Shown here: positions 4,754 to 46,008 of the stretch, in pieces | Numbering within the stretch: position 1 is the first letter of the stretch | How the letters are laid out: each line of letters begins with the position of its first letter | Origin: Mesostigma viride | Taxonomy: Eukaryota; Streptophyta; Mesostigmatophyceae; Mesostigmatales; Mesostigmataceae | Assembly (NCBI GenBank): GCA_009746045.1 | Contig: RPFO01000065.1 | Coordinates: forward strand, 1,585,424-1,649,423 | Length of the DNA stretch: 64,000 nucleotides | Reading direction: 5' to 3' | Program-made: the position numbers and the translations under genes | Notes under the pieces: model-generated | The model's input: only the letters and a program-made list of their open reading frames with translations | Databases searched by the model: none | What the model was told of the DNA's origin: nothing

Positions 4754-5026
4754 GGTAAGACATATATTTGTGTGGATGGCTCTTGATATCATGCTGAATT
4801 TCTAGTCTTCTCTAGGTGGACAGTTCATGTGCAGCCATACAGGTCATCCATGTGTGTTTTAACCATGTTGCATGTGCCACAGATATTATGAGCAGTATTT
4901 ACTAAGTGTGCTGGAGTCGTTGTTGCATGCTTGTTGTATTTCACAGTTCACGCCTGCATGAACGCATCGTTGATACTAATGATTATTCATATTGCATGAC
5001 TGTTCTATTGGGGACGCCGCGCTTGA

Positions 5027-6779
5027 TGTCACAACGTGGCCGAAAGGGTGCATCCACCGCTGACGGCCGGTGGGTGAAATCGATGGACGCATTTCCGAAG
5101 AAGCCAGCCGCGGGCCACACCCATGGCGCGGGCGGGGCGCGGGCGGGGGCGGGGGGGGGAGAAGGCGCGGGTGCGGGCGCGGGCGCCACCCAAGACGCGG
5201 GCGCGGGCGCGGGCCCGGCGGGCGGGGGCGGGGGCGGGGGCGCAGGCGCCGGCGCGGGTGCGGGCGCGGGCGCCACCCAAGGCGCGCGCGCGGGCGCGGG
5301 CGGGGTGGGGGCGCAGGCGCCGGCGCGGGTGCGGGCGCGGGCGCCACCGCCGACTTGGATGATGAGCCAGCAACCGAAGCCGAGAGGGAGAGGCACCGCT
5401 CTTCGAAGGTGTTCGATCTCGAAGTGTTTTGGGGCCCGGATATGACCGTGTATGTCCGCTGGCGCCTAGCCGCATCGGAGACGTTGGTAAATGCACCGGT
5501 GAACAAGTGGCAGCCCACAGGGCCTAATGGCGAGGCTTGTGACGGGGTCACGCCCATTGGGTACACCCCGCAGGGAGATCCTGTCTATGGGTGCCTCCTC
5601 ATAGAGCGTGGCAAGGCCCCCAAAGGAAGTCCTGGTCTAGTGCCGCTTTTTGAATGGGACGAGGGCGGTGCCAGGAGATGTACCTGCGCTAGCCTTCACA
5701 GCCTTTTTCCTGACATCGTCGCCGCTGAGAAGCAGCAGTTGCTGGACGGATGGATTGAGCAGGTGCCAAAGTCCGTGGAGGATGTGCGTGCCAACAACGA
5801 GAATCTGTTCGACATCATGGAGCAAAAGCTCAAAGAGAAGCGTGAACTGCAAGCGAACAAGGCGGTACCCTTACCGCTGCGATCTGCAGGCGACCAGTCG
5901 GTTGCGCGGGCAACACGAGCACTGAGGCTGCCCATAAAACAAGTAATCTCACACGTCGCTTGCCCTGCCCGCGAGATTCAAGCGCAGATCAACCGCGCAT
6001 GTGCGCCCGCTGCGCGAGGGAGCACATCAACGGCAACGCCCGCTTTGCGCACACTGATTTCCGGCAGGCACACCTTCAAGGTGAATGGAAGCCTCATACG
6101 ACGCAGCGACCTACTCGTTGTTAAGCGGCCAGCCGTCACCTGCGGGCAGGGAATGCCGTGGGCACCACACATGCTGGTGAAGGTCCTTGATCTGGAAGGC
6201 GATCGCACGGAGCGTGACAGCATTGTCGCCTCTCCTTACTACGCACCGTCGTGGACGGGCCAGTTTTCTAGAGTGACATTAGGTGGCGGCAGCGCAGGGA
6301 TGACGGTCCCCATTTCTGATGTACACCTGCAGCACTGGACAGTGGGCGGTACGGCAGAGGTGCACCAGCCTGAGCTGATCAGTACCGGCAAACTGTCAGC
6401 TGCCACGGTGGCGGCGTTGAAAGAGCACCCGCAGATTGACTTTGAGCATTACAAGACTGCCACCGCCGCCAGGGCAGCAGCAAAGGATGACTGCAATGCC
6501 TACTTTGCCGAGCATGGAGCACGTGCGCTTATCGGGATGCGCCTGTGTGCCCTGTTTCCGGGGATAGCGAGGAAGAGGGAGCGCTTCCATGGCTGGGTCA
6601 CTAAGGTTCAGGAAAGGGGAGGTCACCTGCTCATCAAGGCGATGTGGGCTGATGGGCAGGACTATCATGCCCTGGCGGAGGTGACGCAGTTCGTGTGCGG
6701 CTGCCCACACCCAGTCGAGGCATTTGGCCGCGCTCGCTTCTTTCCACAGGAGCTAGGCTGGCACCGTGAACGCAGGTGA
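5027..6779 (+). CDS. Unrecognised long coding region with Gly/Ala repeat (frameshifted)
   Basis: I do not recognise the family. The likely start is the ATG at 5,027 (MSQRGRKGAS). That frame reads a Gly/Ala-rich tract with two ATQ-containing units up to about 5,300. The third unit is in register only in the frame that then runs unbroken to the stop at 6,779. The switch lies in the G run at 5,302-5,311, so a one-base indel (real or assembly) is the simplest reading. The remaining ~470 residues are non-repetitive and look genuinely coding: an acidic start, FWGPDMTVYVRWR, a CTC motif, a Leu/Glu-rich helix and a Cys-x-Cys near the end. No membrane segment is seen. A Glu-rich frame (6,766-7,008) overlaps the end and might be a frameshifted or spliced acidic tail. 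Confidence 0.5.
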
Positions 6780-6826
6780 TGGCACCCACATAGACGATGC
6801 CGTCCCTGCTGTGCACAGTGACAGTG

Positions 6827-6975
6827 AAGGCGGGGAGGAGGAGGAAGAGGGAGAGAAAGAGGGGGAGAAAGAGGGGGAGGAGGAGGGGGAGGAGGAGGAG
6901 AGGGGAGGGAGAGGGGAGGGAGAATGGGAGGGGGAGGGGGAGGAGGAAGAGGGAGAGGGAGAGGGAGAGGAGGAT
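6827..6975 (+). repeat. GAGGGA-type purine tract
   Basis: About 150 nearly pure purines built from GAG, GGA and AGAGGG words. The plus frame from 6,766 encodes MNAGDGTHIDDAVPAVHSDS followed by a Glu/Gly run, which may be a protein tail or just the repeat. Homopurine mirror-like sequence can form triplex (H-DNA) structures. From 7,009 to 7,420 no gene is seen. Confidence 0.85.
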
Positions 6976-7420
6976 GCGGAATGGGAGCCGGGGATGACTG
7001 GTAGATGAGACGGTGCCATCTACCGGCGCATGGAATGAAGTGGTAGACAAGTTTACTCATGGTTGTCGGCAAGTAGAGCATGCACGCCTGGCCTAGTTGA
7101 ATCAATGAGTTGAGTTTGGAGAGGCTGCATTTTGCTTGGATGAAGAATGTGTTAGCATGGCCAAACTTTTATGGCTTGTAGCCAAATCCTCTTGGGGTAT
7201 GCAGTGTACTAGCGGTGTGCAATTGCGAGGATTCCTGTCTTGTAGCGATGTGGCCTCTCACCCTGCAGCCTGGTAGATGTGTTGGCATGCAGCCACCCAT
7301 CATTGGTCATCCGATCTGGTGTGATTTGCATTTGCACACCTTGTATTAAGGCCATGATTTAATATGTCTTGTTATTTTTAATGTGTATATGCGAAAAGAG
7401 GCATAATATGCTCATATAGT

Positions 7421-35015: not shown

Positions 35016-35657
35016 TTAACCTACCTATTATATTGGTGGTTGACACTTATAACATAACCCTTTGTTGGTAGGTATCCAAGCCCTTTCCCTACATGCATGC
35101 ATAGGCTCTCACTGCATGATAAGGTATGATATACCTGAAGTATGAATGTATGATGATGCAAGTGTGTTGTCCTGTAATGCTTGAAGGGAAATGAGTTGAT
35201 TGGGATGGTTGGTGGCCACGGTGGTGTGTAGTATGACCGCACTTACATGCTAGCAAAGTTAGCAAAAGCCCCATTCCTCTCCTGAGGACTGAGAGTTTTT
35301 TAATTGTTTCAGGCAGTTGCAGTGGCCAAATCGAGCCCAGTTTTTTGCCACTTTTCAAGAACTGTATTGTTTACATGCCTATATTTTTTCTTCATGCACC
35401 AGGATTTGATTGAATTTTTCCCACTCGTTCTTATCCCGAAAAATGCAAATTCGCGAGAGGTGCCCAACGTCCGTGTAATTTTCAGGTGTTCGGGTCAAGT
35501 TTTCACATATGCAGTATTTTTGCCAACAAAATGACATCTAGTACACCCCCGATCCACATCAAAACATTTGGGATGGACCCCCCACCTAGTCGCTACACGC
35601 GGTTGAAAATTGTCAACTCAGTCCTCCTGTGAGGACTGAGTTGGGACAGACGACGAG

Positions 35658-35801
35658 TTAAGGACAATGCAATCGCCATCGAGGTCTTGCAAAACACCGC
35701 AGGCCTCACCGCCCAGGCGGTGAAGGACATTGCCGCCAAGCCAGCCCTGGCTGGCCTGGCCGGCGATGCTCCTCCCATCCCGACCTGGGCAGACATGCTT
35801 A
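35658..35801 (+). pseudogene. LINE ORF1-type gene, middle part
   Basis: The frame reads VKDNAIAIEVLQNTAGLTAQ and continues through an Ala/Leu-rich linker to PPIPTWADML, where the 8.275-kb transposon is inserted. The reading sense continues exactly at 44,077 once the transposon and one TTA are removed. Confidence 0.75.
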
Positions 35802-35924
35802 CCCTAGCCTAATATGGATTTGTACTAGAGCACGCCATTTGTACTTCATTTTTCAAAGTTGCATTTCTATGCATCTAACATCTCAACTAAAGTCTTTGAG
35901 GAAGGGGAAGTTCATAGGACCTGT

Positions 35925-37355
35925 GACACCGTGACACCGTGACACCGTGACACCGTGACACCACCATGGCGCCTCATATTGCATGTAAACACACATCTTT
36001 GCACATTTAGTGATTAAGTAATGGGGATTATATGTCTATTTGATGATGACAAGGTTGCCCTAGATGACCTAGACAACGTGACACCGTGACACCGTGACAC
36101 CGTGACACCGTGACACCGTGACACCGTGACACCACCATGGCGCCTCATATTGCATGTAAACACACATCTTTGCACATTTAGTGATTAAGTAATGGGGATT
36201 ATATGTCTATTTGATAATGACAAGGTTGCCCTAGATGACCTGGACACCGTGACTCCGTGACACCGTGACACCGTGACACCGTGACACCGTGACACCACCA
36301 TGGCGCCTCATATTGCATGTAAACGTGCACATCTTTGCACATTTAGTGATTAAGTAATGGGGATTATATGTCTATTTGATGATGACAAGGTTGCCCTAGT
36401 AGATGACCTGGACAACGTGACACCGTGACACCGTGACACCGTGACACCGTGACACCGTGACACCGTGACACCGTGACACCACCATTAATTAATAAGCACG
36501 TGACTGCGTCACGTGGGTGCCAATACAGAGTAAAGGAACCTTCAACCCTATATACACAGTGAGAAGGAGGGAGGGCGCCCTAGCTTCTCTCACTGCCGCA
36601 GGTGGGCAGGCCACAGAGCGCTCTCTCCACGGCATGGTGCCGGGGCGCAACACTGTGGGTGCAATACAACCAGTGCAATACCATAGGTAGGCTGACGCAT
36701 AGCTTATGCTACAAATGTGAGGTGGGCTCAAGACGTCGGCTAATTAAGGCGCAAGCTGATGGCCACAAGGTGCCAGAGCTAATTGAAGGTACTATAACGC
36801 TGTGCGCTAATATCGTTTCAAGTGCTGTAATGCCTAAGCTATCCCATCATCGATTGCCCCCATCTAGACAACTAGCTGGAGTGCTCTATCCCGGGGAAGC
36901 CCGGGGGGGCTTCCACAGTTTCTTGTTGACGTAGAGGTCCCCGCCCCGCCAGTACACTTGGGGCTTCTCGGGGTTGGTCTTGTGGCCACCACCATGGTCT
37001 TGTGACACCACCATGGCGCCTCATATTGCATGTAAACGTGCACATCTTTGCACATTTAGTGATTAAGTAATGGGGATTATATGTCTATTTGATGATGACA
37101 AGGTTGCCCTAGTAGATGACCTGGACAACGTGACACCGTGACACCGTGACGCCGTGACACCGTGACACCGTGACACCACCATGGCGCCTCATATTGCATG
37201 TAAACACACAAGTTTGCACATTTAGTGATTAAGTAATGGGGATTATATGTCTATTTGATAATGACAAGGTTGCCCTAGATGACCTGGACACCGTGACTCC
37301 GTGACACCGTGACACCGTGACACCGTGACACCGTGACACCGTGACACCACCATGG
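35925..37355 (+). repeat. Left subterminal (GTGACACC)n arrays in ~160-185-bp higher-order units
   Basis: Five to nine tandem GTGACACC octamers are followed by a unique ~110-bp block (ACCATGGCGCCTCATATTGC ... ATGACCTGGACAAC). The composite repeats at about 35,925, 36,080, 36,255, 36,415, 37,005, 37,130 and 37,305. A non-repeat insert (about 36,484-36,990) interrupts the series. The octamers match, inverted, those at 43,583-43,961. Confidence 0.9.
36484..36990. mobile_element. Short insert in the subterminal repeats, CACGTGAC family
   Basis: Begins ATTAATTAATAAGCACGTGACTGC-like sequence within an octamer array, and regular repeat sequence resumes near 36,993. The first ~35 bases match the dispersed CACGTGAC-palindrome repeats at 29,165 and 46,009. 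It contains no gene that I recognise; a 110-residue frame (36,602-36,934) lacks coding character. Confidence 0.5.
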
Positions 37356-37672
37356 CGCCTCATATTGCATGTAAAGACACATCTTTGCAGAATTGTATTG
37401 ACATTGTAGTTGTCTAACTATACACATGTAAGCATTCACAAATTGCAGCTAAGCGTTTATTAATTGCTGCTTGCCTTGACAATATTTAAGCATGCACATA
37501 ATTTATTTCAGCATGGTACGTGGGAACACATCATGTGACTGTATAAAAGAGACAACTAAGTATATTCATGGGTGCCTCATTGACATCATACATGTCTAAC
37601 TTAAAATGAAAAATTATAACACATTCTCATTGAGTCGTTATAGTGAGGGACATTTATGACATAGAGTCATCA

Positions 37673-38800
37673 TTAGAGGGACCATGCCAGGCAAAACATG
37701 ACCTCGCGATAACCAGCCATGCACTGATTGTTATGCACCCTTGCACACTGCTGTGCAAAGGCACGCTTCAGCCCCTGCAGCACGTCTTGAAACGTCAGCA
37801 TCAGCACCGGTGGAAGATCTGACACACGGTTCTTGATGCCGTTGTACCACCGGATGAACCAACCAAACCTTTGGTCAGCATCATTGTGTGTGTGTCCCGG
37901 TGGAAGCCGGCACACCCTGATGCGAGCAAAGAGGCGGCGGACAATGAGAACAGCTAGGAACCCCAACAACTCGTTGTTCATGTTGTCCCCACCCCCATCC
38001 ACTTGAAGGACGAGGTTAGGGGCAAGGCCAAACTCACGAATCTCAGGATCAGTGGACTTCTCCCATGGACGCTCAACAACCACTTCCAACAACTGATGCG
38101 TGAGCACTGTTGCCGTGACGCGCCCTGAATTACCAGAAACCTCAGAATTAGCTACCCATGGCATGATGACCCAAAAATACGTCCTCACCCCGTGCAAAAT
38201 AGAGCAGACTAACTGGTACGGTATATGAAGCTGGCGGCTGCTAAGCCACTCTTTCGAGGCGCTCCCCCTCGTTGGAACCGCTGTCTTCATCTTTGCCAAA
38301 CCATCCATGACTATGGAAACAAAAAAATGCTTGGCGCCTTCGAACCTTCGCTGCAGATAAGCCATCCGCTCCCCATTAAAGAAATCAGTGTGATCAGCTA
38401 ACTTCTCCTTACTGGCCTCCCACCTGGCCCGGTCAGTGGTCCGGTAAAACAAAATGGCATCCTTCAGCTTTCGACAGCGGGAACATTCACCCATAACCTT
38501 TGTGCGAAAACGCTCAACATGGACTTCCATGATTGTCGCCACTGCTTTGAAGATTGTCCTGAAAAGCGAAATACTAACCACAGGTGCATTGTAATCTTGT
38601 CTCTCCCTAACATACTCCGAGTACAAAGTCTTCTTGCAGGGTTGCTCAAGAATGCTGCGGCCATCTCGAGGATCTTTCTCAACTGCTGGGCGTAACCAAC
38701 GCCGAATCCATAGCTCACAAAGCGCTTTGGCCTCCCCAATCCTGGCAGATATTGAACGGGATCCTCGAACACGCCGTCCAGCAGTGCTACCCAAGCCCAC
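37673..38800 (-). CDS. DUF7869-domain protein, candidate transposase of the 8.275-kb element
   Basis: 375 residues to the stop at 37,673; the frame opens at 38,800, but the true start or an upstream exon is unclear. Key features: CSRCRKLK (near residue 106), a long amphipathic helix, FVSIVMDGLAKMK (near 162), a hydrophobic sheet-like region, LVLQVDGGGDNMNNELLGFL (near 272) and RLPPGHTHNDADQRFGWF (near 301). These match the DUF7869 pattern of S-I-x-x-D-G, L-D-N-x-x-x-D-N-K-N and G-H-T-H-x-D-x-D-Q. The conserved Asp and His residues suggest an RNase H-like metal site, though that is inference. It lies between inverted subterminal repeats and is the best transposase candidate in the element. An N-terminal Cys-motif region is missing here, so it may be partial. 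Confidence 0.75.
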   Translation of the reverse strand: MGLGSTAGRRVRGSRSISARIGEAKALCELWIRRWLRPAVEKDPRDGRSILEQPCKKTLYSEYVRERQDYNAPVVSISLFRTIFKAVATIMEVHVERFRTKVMGECSRCRKLKDAILFYRTTDRARWEASKEKLADHTDFFNGERMAYLQRRFEGAKHFFVSIVMDGLAKMKTAVPTRGSASKEWLSSRQLHIPYQLVCSILHGVRTYFWVIMPWVANSEVSGNSGRVTATVLTHQLLEVVVERPWEKSTDPEIREFGLAPNLVLQVDGGGDNMNNELLGFLAVLIVRRLFARIRVCRLPPGHTHNDADQRFGWFIRWYNGIKNRVSDLPPVLMLTFQDVLQGLKRAFAQQCARVHNNQCMAGYREVMFCLAWSL

Positions 38801-39099
38801 AACGGTATGAAAGTGCCAAAAAATGCCCTTATAAGCCCTACAAGGAGCAAATTGAGTCCAAACATGCTAGATATTGGTAGGCAGCATGTCCATGACACCA
38901 GTAAAAGGAATTTGACTTTCCAGAATTTTTCGACATCGGTTGGTCTATTTTTGGCATGTCTATTTTTAGCAACTTTCCAGATTTTAATACAAACAAATAC
39001 CATTTGATATGCAAATAAAGAGCTCCTGACCTGGCTGTTTGCATGTAGGCTTATGCTCATGTCTACCATCTGTGCACCATGTCCCATGGTCATCTGACC

Positions 39100-39650
39100 T
39101 CATTTGGTGACAAACTGCCACCAAATGCTAGCAAAAACGCACCGTTTCACCACATCTCATAGCAGTTTCCATGGAAGATGTGTTCAGTCGAGGCTGGAAA
39201 TTTGCAATCACGTTACACATCATAAATGTAGACATGGCACAAAAAATCAGGTCCATCGTACTGTATTTGGTAACAAAATGCCACCAAATGCTAGCAAAAA
39301 TGCACGTTTTTCGCGTTTTTTTCACACATTTCATGACAGTTTTCATACAAGATGTGCTCAGTTGGGGCTGGAAACTTGCAAGCATATTAAATATCATCAT
39401 AGTAGACATTGCACAAAAATCCAGGTCTGTTGTACTTCATTCATTGACAGCTTGCTAGCAAATGTGAGAAAAAATGTGCGTTTTTTGCATTTCCGCCACA
39501 TTTCTTGCAGTTCCCATGCAAGATGTGCTCAGGTGAGGCTGAAAACAAGCGCCCATGTTAATCATCATGTCATTTCAGACATTGCACAAAACTTCAGGTC
39601 CATCAAGTGTCATTGGGTTCACTGGTCCATGCAACACCTGCGAGTTTCCA
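39100..39650. repeat. ~163-bp tandem repeat, three units
   Basis: The landmark TGCTAGCAAA recurs at 39,127, 39,290 and 39,453, a constant 163-bp period, with a decayed end. Each unit includes a GATGTG(T/C)TCAG word and a conserved GACATTGCACAAAA-type end. It shares the GCTAGCAAA word, but little else, with the tandem repeat at 7,421-8,115. Confidence 0.85.
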
Positions 39651-40892
39651 GCTAATCACTCAACCTTGGATGCAAAGTTCTTTAGTAACGGTATGGCCAA
39701 CTCCCACCAACTGTGTTGCTAACTGTTCAGACCTTGCACAGATAATATAACACAACTTTTGTGACACACAGACAAAGATATATGAACATGAACAGTGGCT
39801 AGACATGGTTGTATATATGTGCATACGGCCATGCTAAGGCAATTTTCAAGTAGGGGCTTGTTAGACATAAGAACTGCCAACTGTCACGTTGGCTAGCATG
39901 ATCAGTTCAAACCCACAGCACGCACGGTAGCCGCAAACTCAGCTTGGCAATGTAATAATCTAATCTGATGCCAGGCATCTCGGCCGTCGGCATGGTTGCG
40001 ATGTGTTTTGTGCGCCTTGATTTGGTAGCAGCACATCCCTTGGCAACCGGCCCGCCTGACCAAGGTTGCCACACATGGTCCTCTGCATCACCATGGATGC
40101 CCCCATGTCCCTGTCTCTGTTATAGGGGCCCACGTTGCTGGCAACGCAGCTTCCAAGTTGGACTAGATCTCCTCAGCCAGCGCTGTGGTGCATAGCCAGA
40201 CAGCTCATACACTGCTCAGTTGCTACCTCGAGGTTGCCGGCTTGAAATATGCCACCAAAGGACTGCACTTGGCCGCCATCATACCTAGCATGAAGAAGCC
40301 ACTGCACATCCCCGGTGAGCCGCTTGGCCACAATACCGCAGCTGTCTTCAACAGATAGTGCAAGCCCAATGGCCTCTACATAGGCACATGCATCGTGCTC
40401 ATGCTCTTGCTCTGGCCCTTGTCAACATGAGATGCATGCCCATGCATGCTTCACCATGTTTCTCCAAGCCATCCGTGACTACTTGCTTCAGATATGTCAT
40501 TCAACTCCTGCACGTCCTCAGCCAGACTGTCAAACTAGCTGGTGCCCCATCCCTCACTTTGGTGAGGACTGCGATTCTGGCTAGCAGCTTAGCGATCGTG
40601 CGTGGTTGTGCCTGAGTTTCTGGGTGAGTGGCAGTGGCATTGGAGCAAGAGGTGTTGAGCATGTGCGTGTGTCTATCCACTTGACAAACAACCCCTCCCA
40701 CCCCTGACATTGAGGAGTTTGGCCATGTGCCAGGTTGCCAGAATTCCGCAAACATGCATCATAGGGAAATAAAGGATTGCTGGTTGTGCACACCACATGA
40801 GAAAACAAAACACACATACCTGTCAGGAGGGCAGGCTTGGGTTGCTTCATTGGCGCTGGTTGCAACGTGCGTAATAATAGCCCGCCATTGGC

Positions 40893-41917
40893 TCATTTAC
40901 CCGTGCCCTTGGCCAGCACGCACAGCCTGAACTGCATGAACTGCATGGATGCGGCCGTCCAGGATGCCCTCTGCTCATCATTCAGGGGTGTGAAGGCAGC
41001 TTGGGTGCTGGCGTGTAAGGCAGCTTGTGCATCAGTGTTTGCCGCCCGGCCGTGTGGCAGCACAGGTAGCTGGCCTAGCCCGGCCACTGTCCTCTCTCCA
41101 CTCTCACGCAATATGCCACCCTCTCCACAAACCATGACAGTTCTCATGTGCATGCATGTCTTAAGATGCTTGTTGAAGGCAGATGCTTTCAGCTTAGAGA
41201 TGGTGGGCACGTATACAGTGGGTTTTATGGACTCACAAGCATGTGAAGCCATCGAGCATCCAAGAAAGCCACCAATTGCTTCAAGGTTTTCCATCAATCT
41301 TCGTGGTCAACCATGTCATGCAACATTACTTGCCGTGAGCACAATGCCAATAAATTGCAGCATGTACAACTAGAGCAAAGCAACAGCTTTGTGATCCATA
41401 GCCCTGCCTGCAAATCATTGCCATCGATCGGAGGCAATAGCGCTGCAAGGCTGCCAGCCAGCCCGTAATATCTTGCCCGCAATCCGTCATGCACCCTCCC
41501 TAATATCCGTGTGAAGAGTTCCTTGACATCCCTAGCCTCTAAGGTAACCTGTACGTCGCTGATGTGAAGAAAAGGCTCGCCATGAAACCGTAGCTCGCTA
41601 TACGATTCATGACGCACCTCCCGTAAGATAAGAAGATGACCAAAAGAGAAACTCCGGAGATGGGGAACTGGTAACATATTCATCCGTGACAAGGTCAGGG
41701 ATTCAACAAGGAGTGAATTGGCCCGTAGATTTGAATAAGGGAACATACCGCTCGGAGGTATCCATGTCTGCCGTGCGCTTGATGTCTGTTTCGCACACCC
41801 CGCCGCAGAACTCGTTCCGGCATTCACCTGCTGACCGCAGTTTCTACATGTCCAGAGGCTGATAAAAGCCCCAACATCGTGGGCGTCTTTAGAGTCCACA
41901 AAGCCTGCATTAAACAT
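40893..41917 (-). CDS. Hypothetical transposon-borne coding region (two overlapping frames)
   Basis: Frame 41,917-41,294 encodes 207 residues with a CRNCGQQVNAG motif, a basic-hydrophobic core (LPVPHLRSFSFGHLLILREV) and ELFTRILGRVHDGLRARYYG. Frame 41,297-40,893 encodes 134 residues starting MMENLEAIGGFLGC. The end of one overlaps the start of the other. Composition looks more coding than the surroundings, but I recognise no domain and did not establish splice sites. It could belong to an upstream part of the DUF7869 gene on the same strand, or be chance. Confidence 0.3.
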
Positions 41918-42447
41918 GACGTTCGGGGCAAACGCATATATATACGAAGTATGGGTCTGCCAAGCCTGACGCAGCCTTGAAATTGGTCGGAAATATGCGG
42001 TAGCTCAGGAAAAAAAAGTTGCAGCGGTAATGAAGAAAGTCGTTCGGTCAAAGTCTTTAGAATACATTTTACCGATGCAATCTTCCATCGTTGTCGATAT
42101 ATCGGCGTGCAAGTGCACCCGCCTGGCCCGAGGTGGTGTCACGAGGTCCGAGCTACTCGTGGTCCGCATTGATTGCTCTTGATTCTGAGCGAATCTCAAC
42201 GGGCCAATCAGGTGTCGGGACCTCGGGACACCACCTAAATTTGGGCCGCAAGTTCTCGGGACCTCGGGACATCGACCTCGGGAACGAAGGCATGCACCCG
42301 ATGTCACGAGGTCCGGAGAACTTGAACGCAAAATAATATACAGATTAAGCTCGACAAGTACTTCTGGACGCACGACGTAGATAATTTGCGTGCCCTCGTG
42401 TTTGTTCGTGTTTTTAGGACAGCGGAGTTTGATAGGATATAGCTGCG

Positions 42448-43158
42448 ATGGCTAGCGGCGAACAGCAGCCGCCGGCAGAAATCCATGAACAGTATGGCTC
42501 GGATGAACGTGCAGAGCATGCCGAGACAGCCGATGATGGCGCTGCTGTAGACGGGAAGGCAGATGAACAACCAAAAGATAAGAAATCAACCGTGTACGTC
42601 CGGGGCGCGCTGAATGAGCTTAATAGAATTAATGCAGCCTCTGATGGCGGTTCGGACGGGGAGCGCGAGCGACCAGGCAAAACTGCATCGCAAGGAAGAT
42701 CGCAGGTAAATTCCGTAAGAAAACCCCCATGGTTTGCCCCATTTTCCAAAAAAAATTTCCCCTCGCGGGGGGCGCGTGAAAACGAAGGCTCCGCTCCGCC
42801 CGCCCAAAGGCGGCGGGCTCCGCTTTGCCTTTGCCGTTTTCACGCGCCCCCCGCGAGGGGTTGTTGTTTAGGGGGGTTATCCTGCTTGGGATGTCGACTG
42901 CCTGCCTGTATGCTTTCATGAATAGAATCGTAGTTGCAGCTTCTATGCAATTCAGCTTGCACGAGGCTGCTGCATGGAGGGTACGATGACGTTTGGTGTC
43001 GGAGAAAATACGTAACTTTCTTGTTTTGCTTTCTTGTTTTGCGTGCTATAAATGCTATTGTTTTGCACCAGGCATCATCGGACGCAGTGCCTCGGAGGCG
43101 TCTGGTGAAATACCAAATAACAATCTGGAACAAGATGTGTATTATGATGACTATTAAG
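42448..43158 (+). CDS. Two-exon small acidic/basic protein gene inside the transposon
   Basis: Exon 1 is 42,448-42,704 and exon 2 is 43,072-43,158, joined in the same phase by a GT-AG intron (donor CAG|GTAAAT, acceptor TTGCACCAG|GC). The product is about 114 residues: an acidic, disordered N-terminus (EQYGSDERAEHAETADDGAA), a conserved-looking STVYVRGALNELNRI, a Ser/Gly/Glu/Arg linker and a basic C-terminus (VPRRRLVKYQITIWNK). I recognise no family. The intron contains a foldback element (42,759-42,860). It lies near the right end of the 8.275-kb element and may be its second gene, possibly a DNA-binding accessory; that role is inference. Confidence 0.5.
42759..42860. mobile_element. Foldback element with 26-bp perfect inverted ends, in an intron
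   Basis: The left end CCCCTCGCGGGGGGCGCGTG (42,759 on) and the complementary right end (42,835-42,860) pair over 26 bases around a 50-base GC-rich centre. It resembles a very short MITE. No clear target duplication is visible; the flanks share partial A-rich/T-rich complementarity. Confidence 0.75.
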
Positions 43159-43582
43159 TGAGACATGCATTGTTTTGGACTAGTTGTCTAATTAATGGTA
43201 TGCGCCTGGGCATCAAACCCAGATGGAATACACATATGCGCATACCTGTTTTAATGGTTTGAGACTCACATGTGACTGCATGGTTGACTTAGTAGATCCA
43301 TGTCATATTTCAGTAAAGAATGTGATGCATGCATGGCTATTTAGGAATGAAGGCTAGTTGTTTAGCCTTATCAATATTTGGTGTCAAATGCAGTTGTATC
43401 TTGTGCCATGCCACTTTGTCACCGTGTCCTGGTGTCATGCATGATGCAACAGTGTTCTGAGACGTAGGGCATGTAAGGTTCTTTCTTTTCAGGGGTTCAA
43501 AACTAATTATGTTGCCTTGTGCTTGCATTACTCAAGTTAGAGAAGTGAAAAACGATATCTCCATACATAGCAAGATTCAATG

Positions 43583-43961
43583 TCACGGTGTCACGATGTC
43601 ACGGTGTCACGATGTCACGGTGTCATGATGTCGTGCGGTGTCACGTCATGTTGGGCAGCGCTTCAGCTTACATGTGGACATCATGATATCAGTGCTGTAC
43701 ATCACATTACCTTGTGACATCATACAAACTGTGAAATGCTAGCTAGTGTTGTGATGTCACGGTGTCACGGTGTCACGATGTCACGGTGTCATGATGTCAC
43801 GGTGTCACGTCATGTTGGGCAGCGCTTTAGCTTACATGTGGACATCATGATTCCAGTGCTGAACGTCACATTACCATGTGACATCATACAAACTGTGAAA
43901 TGCTAGTGTTAGTGATGTCACGGTGTCACGGTGTCACGGTGTCACGGTGTCACGGTGTCAC
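43583..43961 (-). repeat. Right subterminal (GGTGTCAC)n arrays
   Basis: Octamers GGTGTCAC/GATGTCAC, the reverse complement of the left-end GTGACACC, occur in three clusters (about 43,583-43,648, 43,756-43,810 and 43,917-43,961). They are separated by two copies of a ~110-bp block containing CATGTTGGGCAGCGCTT. Opposite orientation at the two ends is what a transposase recognising both ends would require. Confidence 0.9.
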
Positions 43962-44076
43962 CACATGTTGGGACACTGACCTCCATGCTTTGGACCTATG
44001 AGAGGCATTAAATAACAATGTTGAAAAAAAACCAATTTGTACTAGTGCTGTAGTACAAATCCATATTAGGCTAGGG

Positions 44077-44602
44077 TTAAGCAGCACGCCACCTCCACCA
44101 CCTCCGCCGTCGCAGCACAGCTCCAGCAGCAGACGCTCGACCTCCGCGAGGAGGCCGAGCTCGCCAAGCGCAGCCTCAACGTCATTGTCAAGAACTTCGA
44201 CATGGAGGAAGGTGAGAATTCCGAGAAGCTTGCACGTGCGTTTGAGAGAGAAGTTCTTAGTCGCATGGGCCTTACTGGTGAGATTGAGCTGGTCGCCCAC
44301 CGCCTTCCCCGTGCGCGGGGTAAGGCAGGGGCTCCCCCGCTCCTTCTCACCTTTAAGAACCCGGCGGACAAGATTTCTTTTCTCCGACGCCGCAAGCGGC
44401 TCGAGAAGACTCACTTTACCCTTGACGACGACTTGACCCTGGCGCAGCAACACCGGCGACGGGAGCTATGGCCAACCTACCTCCAGCTCCGGCAGACCAA
44501 GGCGGGGCAGCCGGTGTACTGGAAGGGGGCGGCCATCTACGTCGGCCACAAGCCCTGGCAGGCGACCCCCGCGGCCCCAACGACTCCAGACGCCCCAGCT
44601 TA
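44077..44602 (+). pseudogene. LINE ORF1-type gene, 3' part (nucleic-acid binding domain)
   Basis: Continues in frame from 35,801 with a Gln/Ala-rich coiled segment (LDLREEAELAKRSLNVIVKN), then FEREVLSRMGLTGEIELVAH, ARGKAGAPPLLLTFKNPADK, RRRKRLEKTHFTLDDDLTLA and RRRELWPTYLQLRQ, and ends with a Pro/Ala tail at the stop (44,600-44,602). The order coiled coil, RRM-like fold, D-D-L-T-x-x-Q-x-x-R-R-R-E-L motif and C-terminal strand pair is the signature of L1-type ORF1 proteins, which coat the LINE RNA. No reverse transcriptase follows. The gene is inactive here only because of the insertions and one frameshift. Confidence 0.8.
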
Positions 44603-46008
44603 GGGGAATACAGCAGTAGTAGTGCAGAATAGATAGACCGTGGCCATGTACATGTAAGCCTCCTACAGGCTCTATACCAGCTGACTCACGAGTCTTATTT
44701 AGCCATGTACATGTGTGCCTATGATGAGCCACACTCCAGATGATGCCTAGCTTTATTTAGTTATGCCGTGCCCATGCAGAGAGCTGCTCTCTGCTGAGAT
44801 GCCACGCTCTAGCTCTTGTATAGCTATGCTGATCTTCCCCACCTATGACCGGGCTCCCCTTAGCTGGGCGTTGCCCGAGACTCTGGGTGGTGCCGGTGCC
44901 CTAGTGCACCTAGAGCAAGTGTTGTTTACATTCCCGCCCTTGCAGGAAGTAGCTTAGAATGTATTATAGGCTCATATGCCCCTTCTTTTAGTTTAGCCAA
45001 GCCCTGCCTATAACGGGACCCCCATGGATGTTGCACTAAGAATTTAGCCATGCTACGCAGTGCAGAGAGATGCTCTCTGTCGAGAAGCCATGCCCTAGCT
45101 CTTGTATAGCCATGATGATCTTCCCCCACATGACATACTCCCCCTTAGCTGGGCATAGTGTGAAGATCATGAGGGTGCAGGTGCCTTAGTGCACCTAGAG
45201 CAAGTGTTGTTTACATTCCCACCCTTGCAGGAAGTAGCTTAGAATGTATGATAGGCCATATGCCCCTTCTCTGGGCTATGTGCTACATATACTCCCAACG
45301 GAGTTATGTTCCAATTCAATTCAATTCAATTCAATGCCCCTTCTCTGGGCTATGTGCTACATATACTCCCAACGGAGTTATGTTCCTAATTAATTAATTA
45401 ACCTTCCCGGTTCATCTGTGTTCTGATTGGCTGAGACCTGTAGGATTGCGTTGGACTCCTCTGTGTCGGCGGGGACATAAGCTTTGCCTGTTTGCCACCA
45501 TAGCCATCAGGCGGATACCCCCAATTATGTGAAGTTATTTCTAATAACCAAACATCCTCACTTCAGGCCCTGTTATTGGACAGCCATATCCGATAGACAG
45601 GAAGTCTTGTGTCTGTACGAACAAGCAGAGAGACTCCCGACCAAAAGGGGACCATAGCTCTCTATCGCCGTAGTACATTCTGTTGCGAGAGCCCTACAGA
45701 AGAGAACCGACCACACTCAGTTATCTCCTGGAGAATACATGGGGTTTCCCCTGTCTCTTGGGTTTGGTAAGTCGGTTCTGTCTTTAATGACTGGAGGTAA
45801 AAGATCTGTGCATTTAGAGGAGCAGAGGCCGCCATTTTATTCTGTTACAAGGTGCTGGAATGCATAGTGGTGCAGGTGCACCTTGTGCATCCCGAGCAGG
45901 AGTAGTTTACACCCTACCCTTGCAGGAGGTAGCCCAGAATGTATTTAAAGCCATATGCCCCTTCTCAGCTAGGATATGTGCTACATGTACTCCCAACGGA
46001 GATATGTT
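44603..46008 (+). repeat. Tandem and truncated copies of a LINE-like 3' tail
   Basis: A ~286-bp unit (GCAGAGAG..., from 44,776) repeats at 45,062. The end sequence, ACATATACTCCCAACGGAGT and then TATGTT, occurs three times, each followed by a simple AATT-type tail: (CAATT)n at 45,311, (TTAA)n at 45,387 and (TTAA)n at 46,007. Repeated 5'-truncated copies with variable simple-repeat tails are typical of LINE or SINE 3' ends. No gene. Confidence 0.65.

Follow-up and report, generated by a model that had tools for sequence, protein, structure and literature searches.

Background

In the transposon En/Spm, the protein TNPA binds arrays of repeats that lie just inside the element ends. Excerpts of PMC8978399 describe CACTA/EnSpm transposons as having 3-bp target duplications of varied sequence, subterminal arrays and two genes. 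The TRC elements of Schistosoma, Tribolium and Aedes, which are related to CACTA, have ends that start with CCC, 2-bp duplications and the Transposase_21 domain (PMC1636069, in excerpts). Excerpts of PMC12730594 assign the signature C(2)C..H(3-4)H to the CMCT clade and give duplications of 7 bp for Kyakuja and 8 bp for Zisupton. Here we report on a transposon of the alga Mesostigma viride that recalls these systems and encodes a different protein. It lies in a stretch of 64,000 nucleotides ("the window") from contig RPFO01000065.1 of assembly GCA_009746045.1 (positions 1,585,424 to 1,649,423), and it carries an open frame with DUF7869 (PF25273). Its family has CCCTA ends and duplicates 3 bp of target, and this copy is likely moved in trans by a DUF7869 protein acting as a DDD-type cut-and-paste transposase. 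A preliminary description of the locus, made from its sequence, had proposed DUF7869 as the transposase of an undescribed superfamily.

Results

The genome searched comprises 439,911,974 bases in 2,243 contigs. The exact 26-mer that forms the end of the window element occurs 74 times in it (reversed control, 0). Pairing convergent ends within 15 kb by eye gave 33 two-ended copies of 6.8 to 13 kb, referred to as family A, which were found from their ends alone. Exact 3-bp duplications flank 30 of the 33 copies and 4-bp duplications none; with shuffled flanks, the mean number of 3-bp matches was 1.45 and the maximum 7. Two insertions are each present on two contigs, as judged from their flanks (C680/C777 and C557:562089/C737), which gives 28 of 31 distinct insertions. 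One further copy (C1413:2943025) lies within a tandem repeat, and its duplication match is weaker evidence.

The DUF7869 frame is matched in 31 of the 33 end pairs, in at least one of them (C1724) only partly. Conversely, 31 of the 34 family-A DUF7869 matches fall inside end pairs, where 0.02 would be expected, and each of the other three (C63, C129 and C2100) has one exact end on its contig. Both pairs lacking a match share their flanks and are likely a single insertion on two contigs. The copy read from these (C777, L116) equals the longer element type A2, described below, minus bases 4821-7034; the deletion takes the whole DUF7869 core plus neighbouring sequence and leaves gene 2 in place. 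The expected association of DUF7869 with the ends is seen in 31 of the end-found pairs, and the one departing copy that was read lost the core by deletion.

A protein search of the genome, in which 105 of 504 candidates were scored, gave 110 matches. Among these are 26 copies of a frame of 397-398 amino acids (aa; type A1) and three of a 606-aa frame (type A2), the latter sitting inside the same ends as A1. Three other families were found through DUF7869: family B at 88% identity (9,029 bp; ends CCCTAAGCACGTCTGGATTTGTACTAG; duplications CAT and GGG, 2 of 2), family C at 67% (ends CCCTAAGCTCACCCGCGTTTGTACTCCAGCAC; duplication TTT in both copies, 2 of 2) and family D at 52-53% (8,904 bp; ends CCCTACCAGCCATTTAGAATGTACTCCAGCAC; duplications TAT, CTG, ACT and CGA in all four copies checked, of 14). 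A B-like end type, CCCTAAGCTCGTCT, represented by at least 11 short pairs, has 3-bp duplications in 8 of 8 checked. Over families A, B, B-like, C and D together, 46 of 49 checked copies carry a 3-bp duplication.

The ends of the four DUF7869 families share the plan CCCTA-N14-TGTACT-NN-A-N-CAC, and 15 of 32 positions are identical in six end types. The end consensus, derived from families A, B, C and D, occurs 573 times in the genome (reversed control, 0). Among the first 100 of these places, the commonest end is CCCTACCAGCCATTAAGAATG (33, counted by hand), known from the D-like derivative L097 (C1:12547288); a matching second end is seldom nearby among the matches listed. Single copies of this derivative and of a B-like one (L096), both without the core, were read. 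All three core-less copies read (L116, L096 and L097) are internal deletions, and Pfam matched no known transposase in the open reading frames (ORFs) scanned in them. Internally deleted derivatives are likewise known in En/Spm. Families A, B and C have subterminal octamer arrays and none was found in D, so the arrays are not a defining trait. Fourteen equal-scoring D copies have open 585-aa frames and five B1 copies have 586-aa frames; identity across more than 7 kb reaches 99.9% between two D copies and 99.6% between two B copies, so these families have spread recently.

A2 (9,051 bp), B and D have a common layout of two divergent genes. Gene 1 is predicted to carry DUF7869 in its first exon, followed by a phase-0 GT-AG intron and a second exon whose frames measure 558-636 aa; the predicted spliced products have 1,127 (A2), 1,112 (B) and 1,184 aa (D), without stops. 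Gene 2 consists of two or three related frames. Between A2 and B, the ratio of nonsynonymous to synonymous substitution rates (dN/dS) is 0.19 for gene 1 and 0.39 and 0.42 for the gene 2 frames. Of all parts of gene 1, the DUF7869 core shows the lowest ratio, 0.08, against 0.19-0.53 elsewhere in the gene. PF25273 scores 44.3 bits in A2, 46.6 in B and 49.6 in D (gathering cut-off, 26). No known transposase was matched by Pfam in the scanned frames of A2, B, D or the window copy, nor, as noted, in the core-less copies. Outside DUF7869, the scanned A2, B and D frames gave sub-threshold matches only, several of those in gene 2 being coiled coils. The A2, B and D copies are likely autonomous elements.

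Three motifs recur in gene 1: MD(G/A), DGGGDN and GHTH-x-D-x-DQ. As had been pointed out for the window frame, they contain conserved acids: the Asp residues of all three are the same and equally spaced in A2, B and D (D361, D463 and D502 or D504 in A2 numbering; spacing 102 and 39/41). These residues are the best candidates for catalytic acids. According to the excerpts of PMC5718144, the fold of transposases without a solved structure has been inferred where strands 1 and 4 each have one of the two Asp close by and a following helix has the third acid; the strands and helices around the gene 1 acids were judged by eye.

The opening of gene 1 in A2, B and D is strongly hydrophobic (Kyte-Doolittle 2.5-2.6 over 19 residues) and resembles a membrane anchor, an unusual feature in a transposase. 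The starts were read at L035 (from 916), L041 (from 3369) and L039 (from 3399). A second ATG follows the hydrophobic stretch, and a relative labelled Mesvir1, P0001, begins at that point. The dN/dS of 0.53 in this opening suggests that it may not be translated.

The features of the window copy are listed in Table 1. Its two 26-bp terminal inverted repeats (TIRs) match each other exactly in inverted orientation, which none of 100 shuffles reproduced. Joining the flanks with a single TTA yields a frame of 230 aa, from stop to stop, that spans the junction; when the element is inserted, the host frame meets a stop at element bases 9-11. The genome has 1,938 occurrences of the uninterrupted site TGGGCRGACATGCTTAAGCARCA (reversed control, 0), and one empty site was read directly (locus L086). 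The perfect TIRs, the TTA duplication at this copy, the frame restored on excision and the inverted octamer arrays, all claimed previously, are therefore borne out, and the copies and empty sites that were to be looked for exist. TIRs, a duplication of fixed length and empty sites together are those of a cut-and-paste TIR transposon. Given 1,938 uninterrupted sites, the host of the window element is a high-copy repeat, and the interrupted frame is likely a retrotransposon ORF. In this repeat (window 35500-35801 and 44077-44603), the right-hand frame has no Pfam family above cut-off. Another family-A copy (C1801:5827802-5840760) has inserted into this host repeat as well, roughly 50 bp away from the site used in the window.

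Table 1. Features of the transposon copy and its target site (window coordinates)
Feature	Position	Strand	Basis or size
Transposon copy	35802-44076		8,275 bp
Left target duplication TTA, 3 bp	35799..35801	.	sequence read; empty site
Left TIR CCCTAGCCTAATATGGATTTGTACTA	35802..35827	+	exact 26-mer; 74 exact copies genome-wide
Left subterminal arrays, GTGACACC octamers in ~170-bp units	35923..37348	+	repeat scan; A2 alignment
About 540 bp between array blocks, without A2 counterpart	36465..37001	.	gap between aligned blocks
397-aa open frame with DUF7869 (PF25273)	37673..38866	-	Pfam; A2 comparison
3.26-kb stretch without A2 counterpart, replacing gene 1 start	38798..42060	.	A2 alignment
Gene 2 remnant with predicted first exon	42436..42921	+	A2 comparison
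Right subterminal arrays, same octamers in opposite orientation, GGTGTCAC	43580..43961	-	repeat scan; A2 alignment
Right TIR	44051..44076	-	exact 26-mer
Right target duplication TTA	44077..44079	.	sequence read

Compared with A2, the window copy has kept both ends, the arrays, the first gene 2 frame and the DUF7869 core, which is 99.9% identical to that of A2 gene 1 over 37752-38797. The gene 2 remnant is 100% identical to A2 over 113 aa, and the later gene 2 frames are deleted. The 397-aa frame does contain DUF7869, as had been claimed (PF25273, E 5.3e-12, 46.2 bits, above the cut-off of 26), with the match covering profile positions 55-116 of 192 only; the N-terminal portion of gene 1 and its second exon are missing from this frame. 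An autonomous role for the window copy is ruled out, with both ends of the DUF7869 protein and most of gene 2 missing. It is likely a non-autonomous deletion derivative and, having lost these parts, would need help from A2.

The scanned ORFs of the 3.26-kb stretch without A2 counterpart contain no Pfam family above cut-off; a 174-bp repeat lies inside it, at 39145-39546. Just beyond the gene 2 remnant, at 42740-42870, there is a GC-rich palindrome-like repeat (CCCCTCGCGGGGGGCGCGTGAAAACG...), and similar sequence is present in the A2 copy L035.

Discussion

The linkage of DUF7869 to the ends in 31 of 33 copies, the shared end plan, the strong constraint on the core and the lack of a known transposase in the scanned frames support the earlier proposal in its central part: DUF7869 is likely a DDD-type transposase. 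The gene 1 protein of the longer siblings would cut at CCCTA, with D361, D463 and D502 or D504 holding the metal ions, and would join the ends to a target whose two strands are cut with a 3-bp stagger. The product of gene 2 may bind the arrays of TGACACC octamers, a role like that of TNPA in En/Spm. The window copy would then move in trans, through the DUF7869 protein that the longer siblings supply.

Several observations weigh against this reading. Three of the 33 family-A copies (C335:2300479, C887:4617206 and C1457:1355698) have no duplication. Many DUF7869 matches are fragments or contain stops, and the C1724 match covers part of the core. Because families B, C and D were found through DUF7869, its presence there is by design, and family A is the only one tested from its ends. 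All four families come from one genome, so the evidence of the shared acids rests on few sequences. The AlphaFold2 models are too poor to compare with the RNase H fold expected of such a transposase: the mean predicted local distance difference test score was 46.8 for the window frame with P0001 and 41.2 for the core alone, with most of the core below 50, and the search by sequence for relatives of solved structure returned chance-level matches only (best E 0.46). The sole database relative, P0001 (labelled Mesvir1, perhaps the same species), found with a four-row alignment as query, is without the catalytic part. No database relative was found for the window protein alone, the D core had none even at E values as high as 10, and searches of viral contigs and prokaryote genomes found none either.

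In build, the families resemble CACTA/EnSpm elements, with 3-bp duplications of varied sequence, two genes and, in A, B and C, inverted subterminal arrays. They differ in their ends, which are CCCTA and not CACTA as read from copies of all four families, in carrying DUF7869 instead of Transposase_21, and in the divergent arrangement of the genes. One alternative is that they form a distant branch of CACTA/EnSpm (CMC) with the same mechanism and a transposase too diverged for Pfam. The shared traits (excerpts of PMC8978399) speak for this, as do the CCC-starting ends of TRC: the Tribolium TRC end CCCTAGTAGCACCGAATATTTGTAAAA is strikingly similar, with the start CCCTAG and with ATTTGTA at base 18, compared with base 17 here (excerpts of PMC1636069). 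TRC, however, has 2-bp duplications and Transposase_21 (same excerpts), and Transposase_21 (PF02992) was matched neither in the gene 1 frames of A2, B and D, at E values up to 1, nor in the window frames. The C(2)C..H(3-4)H signature is not seen either: in A2, B and D, gene 1 has a single CxxC, placed 60 residues ahead of the first Asp, and H(3-4)H after the second Asp occurs only far downstream, at places not common to the three. We regard a distant CACTA branch as rather unlikely; with Transposase_21 and the signature both absent, the families are taken to work like CACTA elements and are not assigned to CACTA. The 3-bp duplication also fits a group with duplications of 2-5 bp in the excerpts of PMC12730594, but the second Asp is not followed by C(2)C and the ends are not CA..TG. 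The KDZ elements (Zisupton, Kyakuja and Dileera) differ by their 7-8 bp duplications, against 3 bp here (same excerpts).

It is improbable that gene 2 encodes the transposase and DUF7869 an accessory protein. Related gene 2 frames in A2, B and D with dN/dS below 1 count in favour of such an enzyme; yet gene 2 is less conserved than gene 1, its Pfam matches are sub-threshold with several coiled coils, and it is mostly deleted in the window copy, whereas 26 copies keep the 397-398-aa DUF7869 frame. A gene acquired by the transposon as a passenger is a still weaker candidate. Passengers are known, for example the TET/JBP genes of fungal elements (excerpts of PMC12730594), and nothing specific supports one here; the core is the most constrained part of gene 1, DUF7869 goes together with these ends even in families that share as little as 52% identity, and the scanned frames contain no known transposase. 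A TTA-specific element resembling PIF/Harbinger is hardly credible. The 3-bp duplication, the TTA at the window copy, the two proteins and the preponderance of A and T among the duplicated letters (34 A, 26 T, 18 C, 12 G) recall that group. Nevertheless, the 30 family-A duplications span 23 trinucleotides (including AAA, CCA, AGG, GAA and CAT), with one TTA and one TAA, far from the TWA of PIF/Harbinger, and no Harbinger family is among the Pfam matches. The variety of duplicated sequences means that TTA is not a target rule; the duplication claimed earlier is correct in length, and its TTA specificity is ruled out.

A DUF7869 transposase thus remains the reading that we favour. The core resembles PF25273, scoring above the curated cut-off, and differs in covering only about 60 of the 192 profile positions, which suggests a divergent branch of DUF7869. 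The chances are about even that DUF7869 provides the catalytic domain for a eukaryotic DDD superfamily not yet described, marked by CCCTA-N14-TGTACT ends and 3-bp duplications, the DUF7869 proteins of other eukaryotes being transposases or tamed ones. Searches of the open literature for the ends, superfamily names and algae found no such element, Repbase and subscription papers being outside their scope, and not one of the 5.39 million open papers searched mentions DUF7869. GQNKN, which we take to be a motif of the DUF7869 family, gave unrelated literature matches.

Conclusions

If this reading is right, a Pfam family of unassigned function would gain a testable role, and eukaryotic DNA transposons would gain a lineage outside the known ones, likely a new superfamily. 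Those families in which many copies are nearly identical, frames are open and deletion derivatives match are good candidates for an active transposon in an alga that probably branched early among the relatives of land plants. The end consensus offers a direct route to members of the group in other genomes.

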